Assembly: GCA_030147925.1 (NCBI GenBank)
Contig: JASBUK010000099.1
Span: 1-64,000 of the forward strand
Direction: 5' to 3'
DNA from: Trueperaceae bacterium
GTDB taxonomy: Bacteria; Deinococcota; Deinococci; Deinococcales; Trueperaceae
DNA length: 64,000 nucleotides
Under the pieces are notes generated by a model. It was not told the DNA's origin. It saw nothing but the letters and a program-made list of their open reading frames with translations, and made no database searches. Shown here in pieces: positions 55,926 through 57,356 of this stretch. The first letter of the stretch is position 1; every line of letters begins with the position of its first letter. A program made the position numbers and the translations under genes.

Positions 55926-56106
55926 AGTAAAAAGTAGAAAGTAACAAGAGGAAAGTGGGGATTTTCTAGAGGTGGCAAGAATCAGACATTTGGAATTTGT
56001 CAATTGACCGCAAACCTCCAAATTAACTCGGTGAGGCGACTTTCTAGAAATGCGTTTCTACCCGCCACTCACTACAAACCACAAACTACTGACTACTAAC
56101 CACCTT
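55925..56106. repeat. Heptad repeat array 6 (fold-back)
   Basis: Left arm GTAAAAA GTAGAAA GTAACAA GAGGAAA GTGGGG directly at the cupredoxin stop. Right arm (56062-56106) on the minus strand GTGGTTA GTAGTCA GTAGTTT GTGGTTT GTAGTGA GTGG, six units. The centre contains two TTTCTAGA-like segments (TTTTCTAGAGG, TTTCTAGAAATG). Confidence 0.75.
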
Positions 56107-56115
56107 TTTAAAGAG

Positions 56116-56149
56116 CATCCTGGAGTACTCTCCAGGGTGTTTGCTTTGC
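56116..56149 (+). terminator. Terminator before the trpS leader
   Basis: Ten-base stem CATCCTGGAG/CTCCAGGGTG (one G-U pair) with a TACT loop, followed by TTTGCTTTGCT. It insulates the trpS promoter from the cupredoxin gene. Confidence 0.65.
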
Positions 56150-56151
56150 TC

Positions 56152-56180
56152 TTGCCCCAAAACTTTAATGGAGCTATATT
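56152..56180 (+). promoter_or_regulatory. trpS leader promoter
   Basis: TTGCCC-N17-TATATT. The transcript should begin near 56187-56190, at or just before the ATG of the leader peptide, so this message is leaderless. Confidence 0.65.
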
Positions 56181-56189
56181 TGTTTTTAG

Positions 56190-56276
56190 ATGAAGACTGT
56201 CATTTTCCATAGTCGAAGCTCAAACCTGGCTCTTGCCGTTTGGTGGCACTGTGGGCGATGGCGTCGTTTTGTTTAA
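56190..56276 (+). CDS. Trp leader peptide controlling trpS
   Basis: A 28-codon frame (starting MKTVIFHSRS) contains adjacent Trp codons 18-19 (56241-56246) and a third at codon 24 (56259-56261), against an average of about one Trp in 80 residues in proteins. It ends at TAA 56274-56276, 13 bases before a terminator hairpin. Three Trp codons in seven, the terminator and an alternative hairpin make this a classical attenuator leader. Stalling at codons 18-19 leaves 56259-56263 (TGGCG) free to pair with 56290-56294 (CGCCA) and so block the terminator. Confidence 0.8.
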   Translation: MKTVIFHSRSSNLALAVWWHCGRWRRFV

Positions 56277-56288
56277 TCTTGACGTCTT

Positions 56289-56316
56289 GCGCCAGCTAAA
56301 CTGCTGGCGTTTTTTT
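56289..56316 (+). terminator. Attenuator terminator of trpS
   Basis: Stem CGCCAGC (56290-56296) with GCTGGCG (56303-56309), loop of six bases, followed by seven T. The left arm can instead pair with the third-Trp-codon region of the leader peptide (56259-56263), giving mutually exclusive terminator and antiterminator structures. Confidence 0.8.
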
Positions 56317-56360
56317 ATTCACCCACAACAAGCGCAACAGCAGACTTCATAGGAGTTTTT

Positions 56361-57356
56361 ATGTTAAAACGCATTCTTACCGGTGACAGACCCACCGGCC
56401 AACTGCACATAGGTCATTACTTTGGCGCACTCACAGACCGGGTTGCTTTGCAAGATAAGTTTGAGACCTATGTACTCATTGCCGATGTTCAAGCACTAAC
56501 CGACAACTTCAACCACCCTGAGATTGTCCGCCAAAACGTTCTTGAGGTAGCTCTGGACAATCTAGCAGTGGGCATTGACCCGACCAAATCCACCTTTGCC
56601 ATTCAATCCCTCATACCCGAAATTGCCGAACTAACCGTGTTTTACTCAAACTTAGTCACTATTTCCAGACTTCAGCAAAATCCCACAGTTAAAAGCGAAA
56701 TCAAAGAAAAGCAATTGTTGTTTAAAAACTCAGTAACTTATGGTTTTCTAGGTTATCCAGTCAGTCAAGCTGCCGATATCACTATTTTTGAGGCCGATCT
56801 GGTACCAGTCGGTGCAGACCAACTGCCACAGCTCGAGCAAACCCGGGAAATCGTCAGAAAGTTCAACCAGATTTATGGCCTCATCCTAAAAGAGCCTCAG
56901 GCCAGACTCAGTAACTTTCCCCGAATAAAGGGTTTAGATGGCAATAAGAAAATGTCTAAGAGTTTGGCTAACGCTATCTACCTTGCTGATAATCCCAAGG
57001 TGATTCAAGAAAAGGTGATGTCTGCCGTTACCGATCCAGCTAAGGTGCGGCTTAGGGATAAAGGAAGGCCTGAGGTCTGCACCGCCTATGACTATCACAA
57101 GATGTTTAGTGGAGATGAGTTACGCACAATTACTCAAGAGTGTCGTGCTGGAAACAGAGGCTGCGTCTTTTGCAAAGAGCAATTATCGCAAAATATAAAC
57201 ACCAAGCTGGCTCCTATTCGCGAAAAGCGGCAGAGTTTCGCCAGCCAACCCAAGACCGTCAAAGAGATGTTGCTCAGTGGTACCGCCAAAGCACGAAGCG
57301 TCGCCCAAAAAACCATGTTACGGGTCAAAGAAAGCATGCTTTTGGTTTACCCTTAG
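56361..57356 (+). CDS. trpS: Tryptophanyl-tRNA synthetase
   Basis: A 331-residue class I synthetase. HIGH motif (PTGQLHIGHYFG, HIGH at 16-19), AADI-like segment QAADITIFEADLVPVGADQ and the KMSKS loop (GNKKMSKSLANA, about 195). Length matches bacterial TrpRS. AGGAG precedes the ATG. Expression is very likely controlled by tryptophan-sensitive attenuation through the leader peptide upstream: low charged tRNA(Trp) would raise synthetase output. Confidence 0.94.
   Translation: MLKRILTGDRPTGQLHIGHYFGALTDRVALQDKFETYVLIADVQALTDNFNHPEIVRQNVLEVALDNLAVGIDPTKSTFAIQSLIPEIAELTVFYSNLVTISRLQQNPTVKSEIKEKQLLFKNSVTYGFLGYPVSQAADITIFEADLVPVGADQLPQLEQTREIVRKFNQIYGLILKEPQARLSNFPRIKGLDGNKKMSKSLANAIYLADNPKVIQEKVMSAVTDPAKVRLRDKGRPEVCTAYDYHKMFSGDELRTITQECRAGNRGCVFCKEQLSQNINTKLAPIREKRQSFASQPKTVKEMLLSGTAKARSVAQKTMLRVKESMLLVYP

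Follow-up and report, generated by a model that had tools for sequence, protein, structure and literature searches.

A probable tryptophan-codon attenuator, apparently leaderless, before an auxiliary tryptophanyl-tRNA synthetase gene of Deinococcota

The second tryptophanyl-tRNA synthetase gene (trpS2) of a Trueperaceae bacterium, located in the 64-kb stretch of DNA analyzed here (the window), lies behind a short open reading frame with clustered Trp codons and an intrinsic terminator, an architecture that recurs in front of related genes. These parts and their predicted folds make it very probable that the leader controls an auxiliary trpS by ribosome-mediated (trp-type) attenuation of transcription, a shortage of charged tryptophan tRNA probably being what turns the gene on. 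An initial annotation of this DNA had already proposed trp-type attenuation of trpS; our analysis supports that reading and refines it, the controlled gene being the second, auxiliary trpS of its genome.

The leader locus

All parts of the locus lie on the forward strand, the leader region occupying the space between the terminator of the preceding gene (56113-56142) and trpS2. A consensus scan places a candidate sigma-70-like promoter at 56152-56180 (TTGCCC at 56152-56157, a 17-nt spacer, TATATT at 56175-56180), with one match at the locus compared with 0.4 in shuffled sequences, and the predicted transcription start is at about 56187-56190. The leader frame, MKTVIFHSRSSNLALAVWWHCGRWRRFV, extends from 56190 to the end of its stop codon (56274-56276); TGG occupies codons 18, 19 and 24 of its 28 codons, the tandem pair at 56241-56246 being the presumed site of ribosome stalling. 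Behind it comes the intrinsic terminator (56289-56316, -15.4 kcal/mol), which consists of an 8 bp stem, GCGCCAGC at 56289-56296 with GCTGGCGT at 56303-56310, and a run of seven T at 56310-56316. On re-reading, the frame, its three Trp codons and the terminator with seven T are all as the initial annotation had described them, and so is the spacing of 13 bases from leader stop to terminator: the stop codon ends 13 nt before 56290, where the hairpin had been taken to begin, and the full stem begins at 56289. The Shine-Dalgarno sequence of trpS2, AGGAG, is at 56351-56355 and the gene itself at 56361-57356. Further upstream, 56000-56105 is a dispersed intergenic repeat (CACTCACTACAAACCACAAACTACTGACTAC...) that recurs about 40 times elsewhere in the genome with 70-92% identity; a stretch resembling it also lies 5' of the same genome's trpE (L144).

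The leader is apparently leaderless: TATATT stands 9 nt 5' of its ATG and an SD-like motif is absent, as had been claimed in placing the ATG at the predicted transcription start without a ribosome binding site. In Deinococcota, leaderless transcription from a -10 box adjoining the ATG is documented and common (PMC12340547). Among 13 elements of this kind that were examined closely, 11 have TANNNT 6-9 nt 5' of the leader ATG, against a background of 4.1% of all window ATGs, and only G095 shows an SD-like motif.

Short ORFs are abundant, and the amino-terminal part of the leader is not conserved between relatives; both points can be held to favor coincidence, that is, a short Trp-codon ORF that happens to lie between the upstream gene's terminator and trpS, next to an unrelated terminator. 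Scanning and shuffling argue otherwise. The two strands of the 64-kb window hold five ATG-initiated ORFs of 6-40 aa with tandem Trp codons (WW-ORFs), among which the trpS2 leader at 56190 alone has a terminator behind it and alone has TANNNT at 6-9 nt from its ATG on the 5' side, and no combination of WW-ORF and terminator arises in 20 dinucleotide shuffles of the whole 64 kb. With the architecture recurring in relatives and found at none of the housekeeping trpS genes, chance is a highly improbable explanation of this locus and is already refuted for the set of elements. The leader RNA as a whole (-49.8 kcal/mol) is also far more stable than its shuffles (z = -4.87).

T-boxes are the usual tRNA-dependent regulators of synthetase genes in Firmicutes, and on that precedent trpS2 might be controlled directly by a T-box or by some other RNA that binds tRNA(Trp). 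The leader is short, however, and occupied by its Trp-containing ORF, and no covariance model matches it: Rfam at gathering thresholds yields zero matches across the 64-kb window, and permissive scans find no T-box or Trp leader family at the locus, nothing at 12 proteobacterial loci and nothing relevant among other riboregulators. Direct tRNA binding of this sort is scarcely credible here.

Predicted folds and a model of attenuation

The predicted antiterminator (56254-56294) pairs GGCG (56254-56257) or TGGCG (56259-56263) with CGCC(A) in the left arm of the terminator and contains an inner stem, GGCGTC/GACGTC. In the predicted folds, a ribosome standing at codon 18 or at codon 19 lets the left arm of the terminator pair with free RNA, at -15.2 and -10.8 kcal/mol, respectively: with the A site at codon 18 the best fold joins GGCG with CGCC, and with the A site at codon 19 the RNA joins TGGCG with CGCCA, the pairing whose possibility had been noted at the outset. 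With the ribosome at codon 24 the antiterminator pairing is lost, with the ribosome at the stop codon the terminator forms, and the untranslated leader RNA is predicted to fold into a 1:2 structure plus the terminator. Since the third Trp codon lies within the antiterminator strand, a stall at codon 24 would mask the antiterminator.

These folds suggest the following sequence of events. Transcription would begin at the leader ATG or a few bases from it, and ribosomes would load straight onto the 5' end of the transcript. With ample Trp-tRNA, a ribosome would reach the stop codon and cover the antiterminator strand, and the terminator would end transcription before trpS2. With too little Trp-tRNA, whether through Trp shortage or because the housekeeping TrpRS is inhibited or damaged, the ribosome would stall at the tandem Trp codons, RNA from about 56254 would be free to pair with the left arm of the terminator, and trpS2 would be transcribed. 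In the event of no translation, the 1:2 fold would leave the terminator free.

The antiterminator of the window (-15.2 kcal/mol) does no more than equal the terminator (-15.4 kcal/mol), and equilibrium folds of the stalled state retain the terminator hairpin, shortened or whole; the co-transcriptional order of events would favor the antiterminator. When antiterminator strength is set against that of shuffles, p = 0.11 at the window locus alone and Fisher p = 5e-8 for 11 elements combined, a test that excluded L071 (from Rickettsiales, with no convincing terminator) and G095 (in which the automatic choice of terminator was wrong). The pairing evidence is convincing for the set of elements only, not for the single locus; the leaders of relatives are too divergent for base-pair covariation.

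The trpS2 gene and its kin

The 331-aa product of 56361-57356 is a tryptophanyl-tRNA synthetase (PF00579, TIGR00233) with HIGH and KMSKS motifs. Another trpS of the same genome (G000:C98) is 43% identical to trpS2, and inspection of the region upstream of it finds no Trp leader. The nearest solved enzyme is TrpRS II of D. radiodurans (PDB 2a4m and 1yi8), which resembles the trpS2 product in being an auxiliary TrpRS of the same phylum and differs from it in clade. In a tree of 60 TrpRS, the window gene, those of G017 and G047 and the copies in trpE operons form one Deinococcota clade (SH-aLRT 93), whereas Deinococcus TrpRS II clusters with the copies on proteobacterial plasmids, and the housekeeping copies are distant from both. 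The window gene is accordingly an auxiliary trpS of the TrpRS II-like type, and the separate clade rules out strict orthology with D. radiodurans TrpRS II.

Recurrence in Deinococcota

Ten of the 111 genomes of the order that were searched carry a TrpRS II-like trpS2, and in all ten it stands behind a Trp leader and a terminator. The leader directly precedes a freestanding trpS2 in four of these, including the window genome (G000), where it encodes MKTVIFHSRSSNLALAVWWHCGRWRRFV; the others encode MLFLTSLSWWHSSWRWRS (G017), MSNAVQYWWWPRLRWVALHCANLG (G047) and MSSRLVVWWPGSTSG (G043), and tandem Trp codons are found in these freestanding leaders as at codons 18-19 of the window. In the remaining six genomes, which belong to two families (G042, G050, G054, G082, G083 and G095; loci L138-L143), trpS2 is embedded in a trpE-trpS2-trpG operon and the leader lies before trpE, the peptides being MVRALTVKGWWWPR, MTCLLTAWGWWWPRKP, MVHFASVQGWWWPG, MSFRSVNTGWWWFR, MQMRTKSQQWWPS and MKRICANWWWQLV. 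The terminators were found computationally, with the one of G095 identified by eye. The plasmid trpS of Deinococcus sp. KNUC1210 likewise has a leader, MKGKHAPCQAWWPGS, and a terminator. Absence of conservation would have spoken against the initial annotation; what is found is that every Deinococcota trpS2 examined keeps the Trp leader and hairpin architecture, and that most proteobacterial plasmid copies have the Trp leader. Two WW ORFs, at L043 and L124, lie inside upstream coding sequence and were discarded as spurious, and a frame before trpS2 in the f5 genomes that by eye was suspected to be transposase-like has no Pfam match.

Leaders of this type are general before trpE in the order: of 25 loci with a placeable trpE, 23 have one, and in 20 of these TANNNT precedes the ATG by a few bases. 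The window genome's own trpE (L144, G000:C71) has a leaderless-looking leader, MFNSFSWTGVLGRWR, with TATACT 6 nt before its ATG and no U-run terminator; the trpE leaders at L163 and L168, in two other genomes of the same family as G000, are like it. A different output mechanism is possible at trpE leaders of the L144 type.

Other phyla and housekeeping genes

Proteobacterial plasmids carry trpS genes of the TrpRS II-like type, and in a non-random sample, compared chiefly for WW leaders, 12 of 14 (Burkholderia, Rhizobium, Variovorax, Aeromonas, Methylocystis, E. coli, Photobacterium, Bosea, Vibrio, Roseibium, Agrobacterium and Salinivibrio) have such a leader, its end lying about 105-145 nt from trpS. 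No WW leader was found at the copies of an Acinetobacter baumannii plasmid and one Rhizobium leguminosarum plasmid or at the Firmicutes and Bacteroides copies, and there is none before about 50 housekeeping or more distant trpS genes. TANNNT lies close before the ATG in about half of the proteobacterial leaders, and the E. coli plasmid leader carries an SD-like motif in its place; a leaderless start is thus not a constant feature. In a Spirochaetes MAG, trpS follows a leader with two Trp codons and a terminator; the Rickettsiales element L071, with a leader, a TATAAT box and no convincing terminator, is a weak case. A plasmid record labelled Streptomyces griseorubiginosus (L133, NZ_CP107771.1) is AT-rich, with the upstream region of its trpS nearly as in Staphylococcus plasmids; it is probably mislabelled or a contaminant.

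No obvious U-run terminator accompanies the Trp leader at several proteobacterial copies or at trpE of the window genome, which suggests that other modes of output are possible in the family. Taken with an antiterminator that is not energetically dominant in the window, this lends something to the view that the trpS2 leader acts mainly otherwise, through Rho-dependent or translational control or as a small peptide acting in trans, and that its hairpin is a plain terminator. We consider this unlikely in view of the strong hairpin and T-run that follow the leader in the window, as they do in the trpS2 elements of Deinococcota, and prefer trp-type attenuation.

Precedents and significance

The principle is already known: attenuation governs auxiliary trpS genes in Streptomyces, with a leaderless leader in S. 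lividans. The auxiliary trpS of S. coelicolor, for example, is reportedly under attenuation. The textbook arrangement is the leader of the E. coli trp operon, with tandem Trp codons and an antiterminator that excludes the terminator; the window leader shares the tandem codons and is predicted to form such alternative hairpins, but that of E. coli is SD-translated and controls biosynthesis. Sinorhizobium meliloti trpLE(G) has a leaderless Trp leader, the 5' end of the transcript coinciding with the leader ATG, and is subject to attenuation (PMC7298713); it shares with the window the consecutive Trp codons and an ATG at the 5' end, which in the window is a prediction, and differs in controlling a biosynthetic operon instead of a synthetase. 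In trpL2-trpS of S. lividans, a trpS follows a leaderless Trp-codon leader peptide with hairpins behind it (PMC8079986); that leader contains a single Trp and lacks a U-rich tract, in contrast to the tandem Trp codons and clear U-run of the window. Attenuation has also been predicted for S. avermitilis trpS2 (PMC1262725). The initial annotation had called ribosome-stalling control of trpS unusual; the Streptomyces auxiliary trpS genes, one even with a leaderless leader peptide, are precedents that make it less so (PMC8079986; PMC1262725).

What appears to be new is the phylum, with use of such leaders throughout Deinococcota; the placing of a trpE-trpS2-trpG operon behind a leaderless leader; and the repeated occurrence of WW leaders before genes of the TrpRS II-like type. 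None of these was found in the open-access literature searched, and they may be published elsewhere. A broader proposal, which we give an even chance of being right, is that auxiliary synthetases of the TrpRS II-like type serve several phyla as a conditional backup for restoring Trp-tRNA, repeatedly placed under a Trp-codon leader (often leaderless) that reads charging, either with a sensor of their own or within an attenuated trpE-trpS2-trpG operon. If so, the second TrpRS of Deinococcota would be primarily an enzyme of starvation or inhibitor resistance. D. radiodurans TrpRS II has been described as radiation-induced and NOS-interacting (reviewed in PMC9437257). A sensor of Trp-tRNA charging before trpS2, and the place of the gene in trpE-trpS2-trpG operons, would give a direct reason for when the second TrpRS is made, and the pattern points to leaderless leader peptides serving attenuation across the whole phylum, at trpE and trpS2 alike.

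The trpS2 protein has one further feature. Its cysteines 240, 261, 268 and 271 (window 57078-57173) form a C-x20-C-x6-C-x2-C pattern that the aligned D. radiodurans TrpRS II does not have and that is close to the [4Fe-4S] motif of T. maritima TrpRS, C-x22-C-x6-C-x2-C (PMC2954223).
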